The position numbers and the translations under genes are program-made. The notes beneath the pieces were generated by a model that made no database searches, was not told the origin of the DNA, and worked only from the letters and a program-made list of their open reading frames with translations. Below, piece by piece: positions 7,217 to 49,649 of a DNA stretch of 64,000 nt (position 1 is its first letter; every line of letters begins with the position of its first letter). The DNA comes from Paucibacter sp. B2R-40 (GTDB lineage Bacteria; Pseudomonadota; Gammaproteobacteria; Burkholderiales; Burkholderiaceae_C), in assembly GCF_025717555.1 (NCBI RefSeq), contig NZ_JAJIRP010000007.1, positions 124,001-188,000 on the forward strand. Direction: 5' to 3'.

Positions 7217-7948
7217 TCAGAGAAACATCTGATTTCGTATCAATCCCACTGCCAAGCCCTCAAGCGAGAAACTTTCGTCGCCGGACTTAATCAGAATGGG
7301 TGAGAACTCAGGGTTCTCCGGCAAAAGCTCAATACCGCTGCGGTTGCGTTTAAATCGTTTCACCGTGACTTCGTCACCAATGCGGGCCACCACGATTTGG
7401 CCGTTGCTGGCTTCACTGATCTTCTGGACGGCCAGCAAGTCGCCGTCCATGATGCCTATGTCTTTCATGCTCATGCCCCGCACTTTGAGCAAGAAATCCG
7501 GTTGGCGGACGAACATATTCGCTTCAACGGTATAACTTTGTTCAATATGTTCTTGTGCCAGGATGGGTTGGCCCGCCGCTACCCGGCCTACCAGCGGCAA
7601 CGTGAGCTGCGCCAAGCTCGCCAGTGGTAGGCTGAATTGAGTGTCAAACGATCGCTGTTTTGACTCTGGTTCGGTGGCTTTGCGGCCGTCTCGCGCATCC
7701 CGGGCCTCGTTCAGGGCGCGCAATGTGTCAGACTTCAGCCTGATGCCTCTCGAAGTGCCGCCCACCAACTCGATCACGCCTTTGCGGGCAAGGGCTTGCA
7801 AATGTTCTTCGGCGGCATTGGCGGAGCGAAATCCCAACTCCCGTGCAATTTCGGCTCGGGTCGGTGGTGCGCCGGTGCTTTCAATGGCGCTGCGAACTAA
7901 GTCGAGGATTTGCTGTTGGCGGGCGGTGAGTTTGGGGCTGACATCCAT
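7217..7948 (-). CDS. lexA: LexA repressor
   Basis: LexA (243 residues) represses the SOS regulon and cleaves itself when RecA filaments form. The N-terminal winged helix starts [12 protein letters not shown] and has the recognition-type segment [22 protein letters not shown]. The cleavage site is the Ala-Gly in GRVAAGQPI. The catalytic serine lies in GMSMKD and the lysine in DEVTVKRF. The protein is longer than E. coli LexA because of a linker of about 40 residues before the cleavage site. AGAGGA precedes the ATG. Two SOS boxes upstream indicate autoregulation. Confidence 0.97.
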
Positions 7949-7971: not shown

Positions 7972-7987
7972 CTGAATATATATCCAG
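7972..7987. promoter_or_regulatory. lexA: LexA binding site (SOS box) 1
   Basis: CTGAATATATATCCAG fits the CTG-N10-CAG consensus with an AT-rich core. It lies 23 bases upstream of the lexA start and between lexA and the divergent asparaginase gene. Confidence 0.8.
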
Positions 7988-7990
7988 TAA

Positions 7991-8006
7991 CTGTATTTTC
8001 ATCCAG
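7991..8006. promoter_or_regulatory. lexA: LexA binding site (SOS box) 2
   Basis: CTGTATTTTCATCCAG fits CTG-N10-CAG. It is separated from box 1 by only 3 bases, so the dyad centres are 19 bases apart, and it sits 11 bases before the TTG of the asparaginase gene. Confidence 0.75.
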
Positions 8007-44056: not shown

Positions 44057-44625
44057 ATTGGACCGGCGTGGTGACACGGCATGGACATTCGGCGAAGGCC
44101 TTGATTTCAAATGATTTTTTACAAGTTCGCAAATGTCCATGGGCGGGCCGGATTCTCGCTCATTTTTGTCAAGTATGTCCATGGCCTGACGGTTGGCTCT
44201 GAGCTTGGTTAGATGCAGCCAATAGTTGCTTGCACTTGGCTGCAAATTCACCAGGCGAACCACTAGGTCCTGAGTCTTGTGGGTGAGAACATCGGTCTGC
44301 ACACAAGCTTCCATAAGTAAAGAGGATATGGCGTCTCGCTGAGCTCTAAGGTTCGGGAAGGTTTCATACGCACTGCGGCATTGCTGCCTCTGCCTATGTA
44401 GGCGTTGTCTCTCTGTGGGGCGCGCCCGTCGCCTTGGCTGGATAGGTAAGTCTGGATATCCGTCATTAGGCCTGGAAAGCGCTGTGGTCATCGACTTTGC
44501 CCGAATCGAAGGGCATGAGCCAGCAATCCAGCGATCGGCGATTTCGCGCGATCGGGGACATCATTCGGTAACTTGCTGCCGCTGGGAGCCGACCCAATTT
44601 GAATTGACTGAACCCGCTTCGGCTA

Positions 44626-44690
44626 GCCAATGTGAATCGGAACATGCGGCCAATCTGAATCGGAACAAGTGGCCACGTTCAATCGGAACA
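44626..44690 (-). mobile_element. Solo IS21-family-like terminal repeats
   Basis: Three 19-base repeats of the type GCCAATNTGAATCGGAACA lie at 44626-44644, 44649-44667 and 44672-44690, with an exact period of 23. Multiple internal repeats next to a CA/TG end are typical of IS21-family ends. No istA or istB is present, so only one end survives. Confidence 0.6.
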
Positions 44691-45505
44691 GCTGAATGAA
44701 TTGAAACGGGAATGGGCGGATTTTTCGGCCCGAAATACGCAGCCAGAGTTGGCTCGGCCAAGTCGGGGTGGGAAACCGCGCTGTACACAGTCGATGATTT
44801 CTGATTACGGCGATAGAGTGGAGGCCGCAGGAAGCTTGCGGTCAGATTCTCGAGCGTCATCTCAGGGTCTTCAAGCGCTAGTAGTGCGGTTTGCTGCCGC
44901 AGGACCGTTTCTGTCGTATCTGCTGTTCCTATCGGCGCATGGTGTTCTTGATGTTTTGTGCAGACCGCGACCTTTGAGACCGCCGGGATTCGGTCGGGAC
45001 CAAGGAACAGCGTGGCGTATTCACCCGACGCATCAAGTAGCGTTACGTTCTGCGAGAGTGCTATCGGTATGCGACAAAGGGCTTCGATGCCTTCGGCCAC
45101 AGAACTACAGGTTTCGAGCACGTAGCGCAGTATCAGAATGATTGAGAAGCCAAGGCCCTGAGCGCGGCTGCCACCAAAGGTTGCGCTTGCAACAAGGCCT
45201 GCGGCATTCATGCCATCAAGGCAACCGCCCCACGGCCTTTGAGCCTTGGAGACTACCTCGCGGCCGAACCAGGAAGTCGACTCGAAGTGGCCCGAGACGG
45301 TCTGGATTGGGAAGTCATAGTTTCGGACCAGAGCTGGACCTTCACTCCCAAGCCATACGGCCTGTGTGCAACCGAGCCGCAAGGGTGGCGGCCGATAGTG
45401 GCTGAGAATTTGGTGTGCCAATTCATCATCGCCGACCAGGTCGCAAACATGATCGTAGGAGGTAAGTAGCTCGGGCATGTGCTTGCGCAAGGCTCCCCTG
45501 CACTC
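44691..45505 (-). pseudogene. C45 family autoproteolytic acyltransferase/peptidase, truncated at both ends
   Basis: The frame reads ECRGALRKHMPELLTSYDHV, then LGCTQAVWLG with the nucleophile cysteine, LVRNYDF, WGGCLDGMNAAGLVAS, and ends with TVYSAVSHPDL. These are C45 family motifs. Homology begins exactly where the cassette gene at 45504 stops, so roughly 50 N-terminal codons are missing. At the other end the frame runs into the IS21-type repeats and stops at 44561. ATG at 45478 could still start a 305-residue product, but it is probably non-functional. Confidence 0.75.
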
Positions 45506-46034
45506 AATCGAACTCGATGGCGAGCCGCAACGTTTTGCCGTCTCCTTCAGCGGTTGCATCTTGATGACCGACACGGATCCGCTCGTAGTTGAACGTGCCG
45601 ATGAGCATTTCGGTCTCCTCGGCCGAAATGTCCCGAACTACGCGCGACAGCGCGATAGCTTCCTGATCCGACATGTCTATCTCGTCGATCGCGTTTCGAG
45701 CGACGTTCTTCAGATACCGGAGCTTCGAGGACTGAGTACAGGAGAGCACCGCGAGTACGGACTCGTTGATCAACTTGAACTGAGCATCTGTCAGATGCTC
45801 GATTGCGTCCGCGTGTTCTTGCAGAACCGCGGACATCTCGCGTAGTGCGCCTTCAACTCTAGCCTGCTGGCGCGTCGCTGCAAGTGACTTGGCGAGTACT
45901 GGGACCAGCGGTGCCAAGAGGGCAGCCGTTGGGGAGAGGGCCGCTGACGCAGCTGCAGCGAGAGTTAAGCCCGCCTCGACGCCGGGACTTCCTGCGACTC
46001 GCTCAAGTGCTGATGGGCGGTGAGGTGCGGACAT
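45504..46034 (-). CDS. Cassette-borne hypothetical protein (possibly membrane-anchored)
   Basis: The 176-residue protein starts MSAPHRPSAL just inside attC at 46040 and has a hydrophobic stretch (about residues 21-44, Ala/Leu-rich) followed by a charged helical region (LREMSAVLQEHADAIEHL). I do not recognise the family. Its stop codon coincides with the start of the truncated C45 peptidase homology and no attC follows, so its own 3' end and attC may have been lost in a deletion. Confidence 0.6.
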   Translation of the reverse strand: MSAPHRPSALERVAGSPGVEAGLTLAAAASAALSPTAALLAPLVPVLAKSLAATRQQARVEGALREMSAVLQEHADAIEHLTDAQFKLINESVLAVLSCTQSSKLRYLKNVARNAIDEIDMSDQEAIALSRVVRDISAEETEMLIGTFNYERIRVGHQDATAEGDGKTLRLAIEFD

Positions 46035-46039
46035 GAGAT

Positions 46040-46150
46040 GCCTAACGTCGAAGTTGAGCCGCGAGCGGCGGCTGGGCGCGGAAGGCCCAGAATGAAATGA
46101 GGGCCTGTAGAGACCAGCCGTTGCGAGGCGGCTCGAACGCCAGGTTAGGC
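46040..46150 (-). repeat. Integron attC site (111 bp)
   Basis: GCCTAAC (46040-46046) and GTTAGGC (46144-46150) bound an imperfect palindrome with inner arms containing TTGAGCCGC and GCGGCTCGAA. This is the structure of an attC recombination site. Genes on both sides are on the - strand. Confidence 0.88.
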
Positions 46151-46198
46151 CGCATTTTTCTGAATCGAGCCATTTGGTGGATTGAGACTTTTCATTGC

Positions 46199-46543
46199 TT
46201 ACTGCATTGGCAGTTGTGGATTGCGCCGACGGAGCAAGCTGATTGCCCACGTACCGGCAACTAGAGCTGCGAACCAGATCGCCAAGTTCGCTGCCATTGC
46301 CTTGGGCAACAGCGTGTCGACACTCAGCAGAACACCAAGAAGATCTACAGACCCAGCAGGAGAAACTCCGGGCCCGTCAACGATGAACGGAACTGGCCAG
46401 CCGCCGGTGAGAAATGAACACTCATTTTCACAGCCGACCATACCAAGTTCAGTAGCGCTGACTCGCCCTGGAACAATCGTTGAAACGAGTGTCGCAACAG
46501 TCGCGACCGCGAAGAGAAGGAACATCTTGCGGAATCGGAGCAT
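46199..46543 (-). CDS. Cassette-borne hypothetical membrane protein
   Basis: The 114-residue protein has an N-terminal hydrophobic segment (FLLFAVATVATLVSTIVPG, signal peptide or anchor), two cysteines (GCENECSF) and a C-terminal helix (LAIWFAALVAGTWAISLL) followed by RRR. The family is unknown. It fills one complete cassette between attC sites at 46040 and 46559 and begins close to the upstream attC, as cassette genes do. Confidence 0.7.
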   Translation of the reverse strand: MLRFRKMFLLFAVATVATLVSTIVPGRVSATELGMVGCENECSFLTGGWPVPFIVDGPGVSPAGSVDLLGVLLSVDTLLPKAMAANLAIWFAALVAGTWAISLLRRRNPQLPMQ

Positions 46544-46558
46544 CTTGGATTCCTTGCG

Positions 46559-46669
46559 GCCTAACGTTGAAGCTGAGCGGCCGCAGCCAGCTGGGCGCGC
46601 GGAGCTGAAAATATACAGGCAGCGTAGCGCGGCCAGCTGGCGAAGGTCAACTCGAGCGACTGGTTAGGG
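46559..46669 (-). repeat. Integron attC site (111 bp)
   Basis: GCCTAAC (46559-46565) and GTTAGGG (46663-46669) bound an imperfect palindrome with CCAGCTGG in both arms. It has the same length as the attC at 46040 and similar inner boxes. The TTA within its right end provides the stop codon of the neighbouring cassette gene. Confidence 0.88.
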
Positions 46670-47044
46670 ATCTTGGTGGAGGAAATAGCTGGCATAGAAA
46701 TCTCTCGCATCTTCCCAGTCTGGCTCAAAAGCTTCCAGGCAATGGCGGTATACCCGTTCTGCATTCCAGTCGTTTCGCGCAATGGCAGTATGACACCGCG
46801 ATTCGTATTCATGCTTGATGTTCGGCCAACCCAACGCATGCATGCAAACTTCAATGAATTCAACCGGCGCGCGGCCAGGCAACTCGAGAAAGACAGCTTC
46901 GAACTCCGCCTGCAAATGAGGATGCGCTTTGATGATTGAAATCGCGGCATCCGCGAAAGGCAAAACATCAGACGCATTGAAGGACTCGGCTAGCTTCAAC
47001 TCAGCGGCGTCGGCGAGTTTTACGATGTGTTCTGGTGGGATCAA
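46664..47044 (-). CDS. Cassette-borne hypothetical protein, mostly helical
   Basis: The 126-residue acidic protein is predicted all-helical with aromatic-rich C-terminal part (LEAFEPDWEDARDFYASYFL). It has no signal peptide or membrane segment and I do not recognise it. The only early start is TTG at 47044, close to the attC at 47053. Its stop lies inside the next attC. It is a complete cassette. Confidence 0.68.
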   Translation of the reverse strand: MIPPEHIVKLADAAELKLAESFNASDVLPFADAAISIIKAHPHLQAEFEAVFLELPGRAPVEFIEVCMHALGWPNIKHEYESRCHTAIARNDWNAERVYRHCLEAFEPDWEDARDFYASYFLHQDP

Positions 47045-47052
47045 TTGGGAGA

Positions 47053-47122
47053 GCCCTAACGTTTGAGATGAGAGGCGGTGCCCGGCTTGCCGGGCGACGT
47101 CCTCTCGATTGAAGGGTTAGGC
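47053..47122 (-). repeat. Integron attC site (70 bp)
   Basis: CCCTAAC (47054-47060) and GTTAGGC (47116-47122) bound a good palindrome with arms GAGAGGCGG and CGTCCTCTC and a GC-rich GCCCGGC/GCCGGGC centre. It is shorter than the two other attC sites in the array. Confidence 0.9.
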
Positions 47123-47123
47123 C

Positions 47124-47702
47124 TCAGTTGGTACCTGTACATGCGCTAGACCCGGCACACGGCTTGCACTCTACGGCCGCCCGATATGACTCGGCAAGCT
47201 CGACGAGGACAGGGATGAACTCCCGAACACTACCTGCCTGTGGAACTTGCATAACAAAGAAGTTGACGGTATTTGGCGCAGGAAAATAGACAGCCAACTC
47301 AGCGCCGCCGTTGCTATACCCGGTGTACTGCCATAGCTCGCCTCGGGCGCCAGACTTTGAGCGTACGCCTTGCAAGCGAGCCGCCTTGATGCTCTCCGTG
47401 CCTGCACGGTACATCTGAATGACCTGATCGACTTGCTCAGTGATTCGAGTGGAGTCGGGTCGAGTACCCGAAGAAGTTATGGGACGTGTGTAGATGGCAA
47501 CCGGAGCGGACTGCCACGTTGTCCCGTTGGGAAAGAAGACCATTGGCACGCCATCCTTTTCTCCGACCTTGTTGTCCATGGTCCAACCACTAGGCGCATC
47601 GAAGTAATAGCAGTGGTCCGCACCGTGTGCATAGCCTGACATAGCGAACGCCTGACTACCAATCGTGAGAAGCGAAGTGACGGCGAGCGCGCGAATGAGC
47701 AT
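47124..47702 (-). CDS. Cassette-borne secreted hypothetical protein
   Basis: The 192-residue protein has a signal peptide (MLIRALAVTSLLTIGSQAFA, cleavage near residue 20) and a soluble domain with HCYYFDAPSGWTMDN, two cysteines near the C-terminus (CKPCAGSSAC has three). Related proteins are seen in integron cassettes, but the function is unknown. It is the first cassette next to attI. Its start is only 8 bases from the recombination junction at 47710. Confidence 0.72.
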   Translation of the reverse strand: MLIRALAVTSLLTIGSQAFAMSGYAHGADHCYYFDAPSGWTMDNKVGEKDGVPMVFFPNGTTWQSAPVAIYTRPITSSGTRPDSTRITEQVDQVIQMYRAGTESIKAARLQGVRSKSGARGELWQYTGYSNGGAELAVYFPAPNTVNFFVMQVPQAGSVREFIPVLVELAESYRAAVECKPCAGSSACTGTN

Positions 47703-47709
47703 TTCTGAG

Positions 47710-47742
47710 GCCTAACGTTGATTAGGGCGCAGTGCGCCCATA
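47710..47742 (-). other. attI-like recombination junction
   Basis: GCCTAACGTTG (47710-47720) holds the G^TTAGGC crossover (read on the - strand) where the first cassette joins. Directly beside it GGGCGCAGTGCGCCC (47726-47740) is a palindrome. The position between the first cassette and intI is that of attI. Confidence 0.65.
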
Positions 47743-47775
47743 TTCGATTCCAAGCCTATAAAAGGCTCAATGTAG

Positions 47776-47838
47776 TGCGCCCACTGTCGGTTATGGGCGC
47801 ACTGCTTGGGTATGCGCCCATAACCGACAGTGGGCGCA
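47776..47838. repeat. 26-bp perfect inverted repeat between attI and intI
   Basis: Two 26-base arms (47776-47801 and 47813-47838) are perfect reverse complements around an 11-base loop. Each arm is itself bounded by TGCGCCCA and TGGGCGCA. GCAGTGCGCCCATA from the attI side (47729-47742) repeats in inverse at 47792-47805. It could form a large cruciform, or be a multi-site operator or part of attI. Confidence 0.85.
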
Positions 47839-47918
47839 GCGGAGACCGGCTTGGCGTCAAATTCCACAATCGTGCGCGGCAAAGCTTTTCCTTGAAGAAT
47901 AACTTTGTGGCACATAGA

Positions 47919-47934
47919 CTGTATGAATATACAG
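47919..47934. promoter_or_regulatory. SOS box upstream of the intI remnant
   Basis: CTGTATGAATATACAG is a near-perfect LexA site (CTG-N10-CAG with ACAG end). It lies 24 bases before the ATG at 47959, as in SOS-controlled integron integrases. Confidence 0.9.
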
Positions 47935-47958
47935 TCACTGAACTTGGCGTCTAAGCCC

Positions 47959-48639
47959 ATGTCTACCTCCGCCAGCCCGACATTTGGATTCTCCAAAGTA
48001 AAAGTCCGCCGTAGTTTGCCGCCGTTGCTATCTAGTCGTCTCCTAGATCAAGTTCGTGAGCGAATCAGATACTTGCACTACAGCGACCGCACCGAGGAGG
48101 CCTATGTCCATTGGATTCTAAGTTATGTCCGTTTTCACCACAAACGACATCCGGCCGAGATGGGCCAAGCGGAGGTCGTGGCTTACTTAACTTGGTTGTC
48201 CAATGAGCGAAAAGTGGCAGCCAATACACACCGCTTGGCTTTGGCGGCGTTGCTATTCATGTACCGGGACGTATTGGGCCAGGACTTGCCGTGGATGTTT
48301 GAACTTGATCGACCAAAGATCAATCGCCGCTTAACCGAGTTGTTGGCCACGACCGAAGACTACATCTTGTCTCTTGGTGATGATGTGCAGCGCAAGGAGT
48401 TGAGGATTTACGCTGCATTCAAACGGCTCAAGAATTTTGCGACGATTGTTTTGCAAAAAAACCGACTGCTTCTTTACCTGCATTTGAAGCCCAAACAGTT
48501 GGGGCCATTGCCGCCCAACGCCCGTGACGTGGGTGAAATAGGGCATTGGGGTACCGGTGATCTTGAGGTCTCGCTGGTGGCGCAGGCCGATCTGGACGCA
48601 GTGAAGCCTCTGATCATGATGGCGTACGAGGGGCGGTGA
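47959..48639 (+). CDS. Integron integrase N-terminal domain fused to a DUF5655 domain
   Basis: The 226-residue protein starts as an Int[56 protein letters not shown] and [17 protein letters not shown]. At about residue 108, where IntI continues into its catalytic domain, it switches to a DUF5655-type domain: [25 protein letters not shown], then [16 protein letters not shown]. The tyrosine-recombinase R-K-H-R-H-Y residues are all absent, so it cannot recombine. ATG at 47959 is chosen because the SOS box lies just upstream and an upstream in-frame start would contain it. Confidence 0.88.
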
Positions 48640-48641
48640 GC

Positions 48642-49127
48642 ATGAGTTCCTTTTCGGCTCAGCAGATTGACGCCTTTGTTGCCTCAATTGAGCAGTGGCG
48701 CTCCGCGTATCACCGTGCGCGCCTTCACTTTGTTGCTGTCGAGTCGGGGCCGCACCTTCTGATCGTTGCCGCACGTATTCTCTTGTTGGCCATCGGAGAC
48801 GAGACTCCTAAGAGAAGTTTTCGCGCCGGGCGCATTGTGGCCGGCGAGTGGGAACTGCCCAGCGCTACTGATGGCCTTGAAGAGGTCTTGGCTGCATTGA
48901 TGAGCGCGGAGGGCTTTGGGGTTCTGGTTATGACGCGGGAGGGCCTTGTCCGCACACTTGATCAAATCCCTTTCTATCCCGACGCGGATACGCTTTTTGA
49001 ACGTGGCGTTGAAGCCGCTAACGACAAGCAGCAAAAGCGGAAGGCTGTGCTGGCAGGTCAGCCCGTGCAAGAGGGTCTAGTTGCCTCGCTGGTCGGTTCT
49101 GGCCAGACTCATACCGAGCAAATCTAG
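48642..49127 (+). CDS. Hypothetical protein following the IntI-DUF5655 fusion
   Basis: The 161-residue soluble protein (MSSFSAQQIDAFVASIEQW start) has a central hydrophobic stretch (LLIVAARILLLAIGD) and a Gln/Lys-rich tail. I do not recognise a family. Its start lies 3 bases after the fusion gene's stop (GTG at 48636 would overlap it), so the two are probably translationally coupled and may have come from the donor of the DUF5655 part. It overlaps the convergent thioesterase gene by 4 bases. Confidence 0.6.
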   Translation: MSSFSAQQIDAFVASIEQWRSAYHRARLHFVAVESGPHLLIVAARILLLAIGDETPKRSFRAGRIVAGEWELPSATDGLEEVLAALMSAEGFGVLVMTREGLVRTLDQIPFYPDADTLFERGVEAANDKQQKRKAVLAGQPVQEGLVASLVGSGQTHTEQI

Positions 49128-49561
49128 ACCCCCGAGCCGAAAGGTTCTTCAAGCTCAGGCAGGACCATAGGCCGACCTCGTTCGTTCAAGGCTGCGCCAG
49201 TCACGACTGCGTTCAACATCAACTTGTTGTCCGGCAAACGATAGATTGACTGATTGAATGCGAGGCGGAGCCGTCCCTTTCGCTCAAACGCAGTCCGAAC
49301 GACGAAGGAATCTCCGCTTGTCAGGGATGCTTTGAAGTCGGCCTCGATGCGGGTCACAACCAAGTCAATGCTGCGCTTGGCCAGTTCCGCAAAGCTGATG
49401 CCCAAGCTTTGAAGCAACTCATGCCGAGCGTGCTCCAGGTAGTTGAGGTAAACGGCGTTGTTAACGACATGCCCCATGTCGCATTCGTAGTCACGAACCT
49501 TCAGCTCAAGGTCCATCGCTGCATACGGTGCCGGCAGTCTCTGCTCGGATTTATTGCTCAT
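49124..49561 (-). CDS. Acyl-CoA thioesterase, 4HBT/YbgC-like
   Basis: The 145-residue hotdog-fold protein has the 4HBT motif VRDYECDMGHVVNNAVYLNYLEHARHE with the catalytic Asp in CDMGHVVNN. It resembles YbgC-type thioesterases but is a separate gene from ybgC. It lies inside the insertion, 38 bases from the ybgC 5' fragment and on the same strand, so it is the first complete thioesterase downstream of the aminotransferase. ATG at 49561 is chosen over an in-frame start at 49621. Confidence 0.85.
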   Translation of the reverse strand: MSNKSEQRLPAPYAAMDLELKVRDYECDMGHVVNNAVYLNYLEHARHELLQSLGISFAELAKRSIDLVVTRIEADFKASLTSGDSFVVRTAFERKGRLRLAFNQSIYRLPDNKLMLNAVVTGAALNERGRPMVLPELEEPFGSGV

Positions 49562-49598
49562 CACGCTGCTAGCATGTCCATACCCCCAACACGCGCGT

Positions 49599-49649
49599 AT
49601 CGGTATCTTCCCAATAGACACGCATCTCGCGTTTGAATGGGGGCTTCAT
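49599..49649 (-). pseudogene. ybgC: ybgC, 5' fragment
   Basis: The - strand ATG at 49649 overlaps the aminotransferase stop (ATGA) and reads [17 protein letters not shown], the YbgC N-terminus. After WEDTD the frame leaves the family (TRVLGVWTC then stop). The continuation DAGGVVFYANYL is at 44056, across the 5.5-kb insertion. Confidence 0.9.

Follow-up and report, generated by a model that had tools for sequence, protein, structure and literature searches.

Integrons are gene-capturing elements. Tyrosine recombinases hold DNA with both of their domains, and in the integron integrase IntI the catalytic domain includes an extra patch specific to IntI. The available text of PMC3108266 describes inactivation of the integrase as common, affecting 43% of 1,135 intI homologues, and reports that inactivation correlates with the loss of LexA control. 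Active IntI1 is described as costly in the accessible part of PMC3510236, where inactivation removes the cost and activity is lost through frameshifts. The closest described arrangement is in SGI1 of Salmonella, where the right integron of In104 has a groEL-intI1 fusion (PMC3285670). As far as the accessible part of that source goes, this is a class 1 integron with a truncated 5′ conserved segment bearing the fusion and a gene cassette inserted at attI; the same island holds another intI1 copy, which is functional.

The locus reported here is of the same type in that intI is truncated, attI is kept and the end of another gene is joined to the truncated frame; a second IntI lies on another contig (C7). 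It differs in being a chromosomal-type integron, in its partner, a DUF5655 domain instead of GroEL, and in the position of the join at codon 123. Two other kinds of protein are related to the two ends of the gene. Full-length IntI (P0002, or IntI4, structure 2a3v) shares the N-terminal domain, with 89% identity to P0002 and a modeled fold like that of 2a3v, but the fusion lacks the catalytic domain and is thus no recombinase. A PDC-S18, NucS-like protein with a DUF5655 domain (P0003) is 89% identical to the C-terminal part, which makes up 46% of the fusion, but the N-terminal two thirds of P0003, which include a weak NucS_C match, are missing from it.

The fusion (protein P0001, copy C48 below) lies in a 64,000-nucleotide window, the whole stretch of DNA from the betaproteobacterium Paucibacter sp. 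B2R-40 that was analyzed. The features are as follows.

44057..49599, no strand: island of 5,543 bp that holds the integron and interrupts a ybgC-like gene; flanks abut in relatives
46040..46150, minus strand: attC of cassette 3; both core sites strict, plus-strand fold z −4.8
46199..46543, minus strand: cassette 3 ORF, 114 aa, without Pfam match
46559..46669, minus strand: attC of cassette 2; one core site strict, plus-strand fold z −3.9
46664..47044, minus strand: cassette 2 ORF, 126 aa, without Pfam match
47054..47122, minus strand: attC of cassette 1; one core site strict, fold of 47055–47122 (plus strand) z −5.4
47124..47702, minus strand: cassette 1 ORF, 192 aa, without Pfam match
47710..47716, minus strand: attI core site by core-site pattern, GTTAGGC on the minus strand, where the first cassette starts
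47776..47838, no strand: perfect inverted repeat between attI and intI, with identical 26-bp arms at 47776–47801 and 47813–47838
47919..47934, plus strand: LexA-box-like site CTGTATGAATATACAG, 24 bases before the fusion ATG, with 2 mismatches to CTGTATATATATACAG
47959..48639, plus strand: intI–DUF5655 fusion ORF, 226 aa, stop-free translation
47959..48327, plus strand: 5′ part of intI, codons 1–123, IntI N-terminal (SAM-like, core-binding) domain
48328..48639, plus strand: codons 124–226 and stop, from the 3′ end of a DUF5655 (PDC-S18-like) gene; PF18899 at E 4.9e-10 for the piece 48334–48636
48636..49127, plus strand: 163-aa ORF directly behind the fusion, without Pfam match
49124..49561, minus strand: 4HBT-type thioesterase at the right island end, PF13279 at E 4.8e-13

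A Pfam scan assigned residues 28–111 of the fusion to PF13495 (E 4.3e-29) and residues 127–224 to DUF5655 (PF18899; E 1.7e-9, 38.2 bits, above the curated cut-off of 24). When the halves 47959–48333 and 48334–48636 were scanned separately, as the preliminary description had proposed, each gave its own domain. Two NCBIfam integron-integrase models matched residues 19–133 at 154 bits (cut-off 435) and 28–133 at 113 bits (cut-off 265), and their profiles align to the fusion only up to positions 121 of 337 and 106 of 315. The IntI region that holds the extra patch is absent from the fusion in this alignment. The catalytic tyrosine-recombinase domain PF00589 was not found in the ORF up to E 1. Nor was a catalytic domain found in another frame at the locus, where the match to full IntI stops about ten codons past the junction. 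The N-terminal part is an IntI-type SAM-like, core-binding domain by its PF13495 match and by the integrase models, which match up to residue 133. Its predicted fold resembles 2a3v; in the DUF5655 part, residues 134–158 are poorly modeled.

The join was placed by comparison with the IntI copies and P0003. It is in frame after codon 123, at base 48327; in this region the full IntI P0002 reads ...NRRLPVVLDRDE. The preliminary description had correctly recognized an ORF that starts as an IntI N-terminal domain, runs unbroken into a DUF5655-type domain and has lost the recombinase catalytic residues. Its boundary, at about residue 108 and base 48320, has to be moved to codon 123. The fusion is confirmed: it looks like a real IntI N-terminal domain joined to DUF5655, with the catalytic domain missing.

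Close relatives exist for both parents. The IntI half shares 89% identity with P0002 and 91% with an intI copy in a genome of the same genus (G008). None of the 48 positions that are invariant among 15 homologues of the N-terminal domain is changed in the fusion, and a single conservative L to I replacement was found at the 41 invariant DUF5655 positions (25 homologues). On the C48 branch after the split from G008, the N-terminal domain took 5 synonymous and 2 nonsynonymous changes (neutral synonymous share 0.26 with transitions weighted 2; P = 0.015), a pattern that shows past purifying selection on this part at the sequence level. The other parent, P0003, is a 315-aa protein. It matches the PADLOC candidate PDC-S18 at E 8.6e-132, and its NucS_C match reaches 22.9 bits against a cut-off of 24. 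Residues 121–224 of the fusion also match PDC-S18 (E 2.3e-33), covering profile positions 216–321 of 365 only; the NucS-like N-terminal part of PDC-S18 is absent by this profile match. The PF18899 match starts at profile position 14 in the fusion versus position 5 in P0003. Our literature search found no paper naming DUF5655, DUF5655 together with integron integrase, or PDC-S18.

The promoter region keeps a candidate LexA box. Scanning the given strand of the window with CTGTATATATATACAG, which we take to be the LexA-box consensus and which is its own reverse complement, we found two sites with at most 2 mismatches, at 47919–47934 and at 7972. The second is just upstream of lexA (PF01726 match at 7745–7933). 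The lexA upstream region 7972–8006 holds two LexA-box-like sites, with 2 and 4 mismatches. No LexA-like site within 5 mismatches of the consensus was found in recA and 1.5 kb on either side of it. The window contains the pattern CTGT-N8-ACAG twice, where 0.64 occurrences are expected, and 14 of 100 shuffles contained it at least twice. It is not rare, so the LexA-box call rests on its position and its conservation, the pattern being present upstream of intI in all four aligned copies. The site would place the fusion among putatively SOS-controlled intI genes, and the retention of LexA site and ATG claimed earlier agrees with the sequence.

Like the cassettes of an integron, those seen here point away from intI, which adjoins attI and is divergent from them. 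Cassettes coded on the minus strand recombine through their plus strand, and for each of the three attC sites none of 200 shuffles folded as well on that strand. The attC sites of cassettes 1 and 2 each have one end that departs from the strict core pattern, and for cassette 2 a shorter minus-strand piece folds at z −0.8. Copies of the cassette 2 site (90–91%) are found in G003:C34, another genus genome, and in contig C5 of the present genome, and G003:C34 also has a 93% copy of the cassette 3 site. With the core at 47710 and three folding attC-like sites, the attI and attC arrangement was described accurately from the start. The G003 and G008 sister copies become alike from the attI core towards intI. 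The inverted repeat between attI and intI would form a DNA hairpin of −37.5 kcal/mol (z −10.4). Of 18 genomes of the genus, 3 have it, solely at this module, and the other 15 lack it; the G003 module has both arms with one mismatch, G008 has one arm with the other partly N, and one diverged arm lies at the C7 contig edge. Candidate roles for the repeat are a terminator, an IntI site or an insulator.

In each of the five relatives fetched (G001, G003, G008, G009 and G013; loci L036, L037, L038, L039 and L041), the flanking sequences up to 44056 and from 49600 onwards meet within about 10 bases. The segment 44057–49599 is therefore an inserted block. Judged by eye, the empty site belongs to a YbgC-like thioesterase gene, which the insertion splits near its start. 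The second, 4HBT-type thioesterase at the island edge is possibly a replacement for it. At E 0.001, none of the 17 other genomes of the genus matched the 163-aa ORF behind the fusion. Past the last attC observed, the island carries an acyl-CoA:6-aminopenicillanic acid acyltransferase-type ORF (44561–45574; PF03417, E 7.8e-33).

The same genome has a further IntI on contig C7 with a catalytic domain (PF00589). It is 91% identical to P0002 over residues 2–362, and its N-terminal domain is 89% identical to that of the fusion. The C7 frame (L002:186–1697) continues in frame for 155 aa past intI, and 103 of these match residues 199–301 of a 405-aa G001 protein at 77%. In G001, about 14 kb with transposition-type ORFs (by eye) separate this protein from intI. 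Contig C5 carries degraded IntI pieces. The G003:C34 copy breaks at about codon 43. The G008:C260 copy diverges around codon 312 and ends after codon 317, next to a further recombinase-like ORF. The 3′ ends of the four close copies (C48, C7, G003, G008) are all different. C48 and C7, the two close IntI frames in this genome, are both in-frame chimeras. For each, strand and frame would agree in perhaps one of six cases; with two cases only, this is mildly suggestive.

A search for the same fusion elsewhere, also proposed beforehand, turned up no second case among the proteins and genomes covered. Searching 5.8 billion proteins gave 1,536 matches; among the best 120 examined, both domains occur in P0001 only, which scores 503 bits against 257 for the next match. 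In the genome_contigs set, 80 of 169 loci were kept, 12 with the N-terminal domain, 68 with DUF5655 and none with both. The fusion was also not found in the 17 other genus genomes, of which G011 and G016 are less than 80% complete. The 24 truncated IntI frames fetched from other genomes include one in-frame ORF of the IntI1-type/GroEL kind. There (G144, a genome of the same family; L161:12425–13081) an IntI1-type N-terminal domain is in frame with the GroEL C-terminus. A second IntI frame, which matches the catalytic domain in part, lies about 9 kb from it, and ORFs recognized by eye as DHFR-, Smr- and Sul-like are found nearby.

We consider it most likely, with a probability of roughly 0.77, that the gene is a chimeric, recombinase-dead product of a recent illegitimate join and an ordinary outcome of decay. 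The intI of this integron would once have been complete. By deletion or recombination, its codon 123 may then have been joined to a PDC-S18/DUF5655 gene at about codon 214, with an in-frame outcome expected in one of three cases once the strands agree. The join would have killed the local integrase and left the promoter, LexA box, attI and cassettes in place. After DNA damage, the promoter would probably still make the 226-aa protein, which is expected to do no recombination, and the local cassettes would be fixed unless the C7 IntI acts in trans. Loss of the active integrase may have been neutral or favored. Neither half is visibly decayed and the LexA box is intact, which counts against decay; these features fit a recent event and would also fit selection. 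That the box is kept, though integrase inactivation correlates with the loss of LexA control, points to a young event. The preliminary description had offered a dominant competitor for attI and attC or a decaying fusion. Decay is the better supported, since the fusion stands alone among the best 120 matches, the three related copies end differently and groEL-intI1 is published; no specific support was found for the competitor.

As a competitor or regulator induced by the SOS response, the protein would recognize attI or attC through its N-terminal domain and, having no catalysis, poison or temper the synapses of the C7 IntI. For this, the cell must also contain an active IntI; the C7 copy, with its catalytic domain and 89% identical N-terminal domain, could be its source. 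The 48 unchanged invariant positions, the predicted 2a3v-like fold, the putative LexA box and the past purifying selection are in its favor. However, an N-terminal domain alone should bind weakly, as both domains of tyrosine recombinases hold DNA, and no second fusion was seen among the best 120 of 1,536 protein matches, the genus genomes or the loci kept. We know of no role of DUF5655 in recombination, and a literature search on "integron integrase" with "dominant negative" yielded nothing related, judged by title. We regard this explanation as quite unlikely. It is similarly improbable that in this lineage the 3′ end of intI repeatedly fuses in frame with unrelated genes (DUF5655 in C48, the 405-aa-type fragment in C7), giving SOS-controlled IntI DNA-binding modules new C-terminal domains, with the C48 protein as a working, damage-induced regulator or effector that binds attI and attC. 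About as doubtful is an effector for which the integron promoter, after DNA damage, expresses the C-terminal domain of a PDC-S18 protein, a candidate in defense against phages, with the IntI domain as leader or DNA tether. The PDC-S18 match of the parent and the 40 of 41 invariant positions kept would suit such an effector, but the NucS-like half is missing, the DUF5655 match begins late in its profile, residues 134–158 are poorly modeled and DUF5655 is not named in the literature searched. Least probable is an assembly or frame artefact at the junction. The fusion is known from one cluster member on one contig, but the junction lies inside a 373-kb contig. A false join should leave orphan halves, unless the assembly is incomplete, and their absence counts against it: neither a separate 5′ half of the DUF5655 parent (the next match has E 0.26) nor a separate catalytic intI half was found in the genome, with only distant recombinases matching beyond the C7 and C5 copies.

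As judged from sequence, no observation specifically supports a functional, SOS-controlled fusion protein. The locus indicates that one join can cost an integron its integrase, while the promoter region, LexA box, attI and cassettes stay; elsewhere, this genome still keeps an IntI with a catalytic domain. An active fusion protein would offer a natural way to test whether the IntI N-terminal domain alone can bias cassette recombination; if decay is the answer, it would be a further case of the documented trend of integrase loss.
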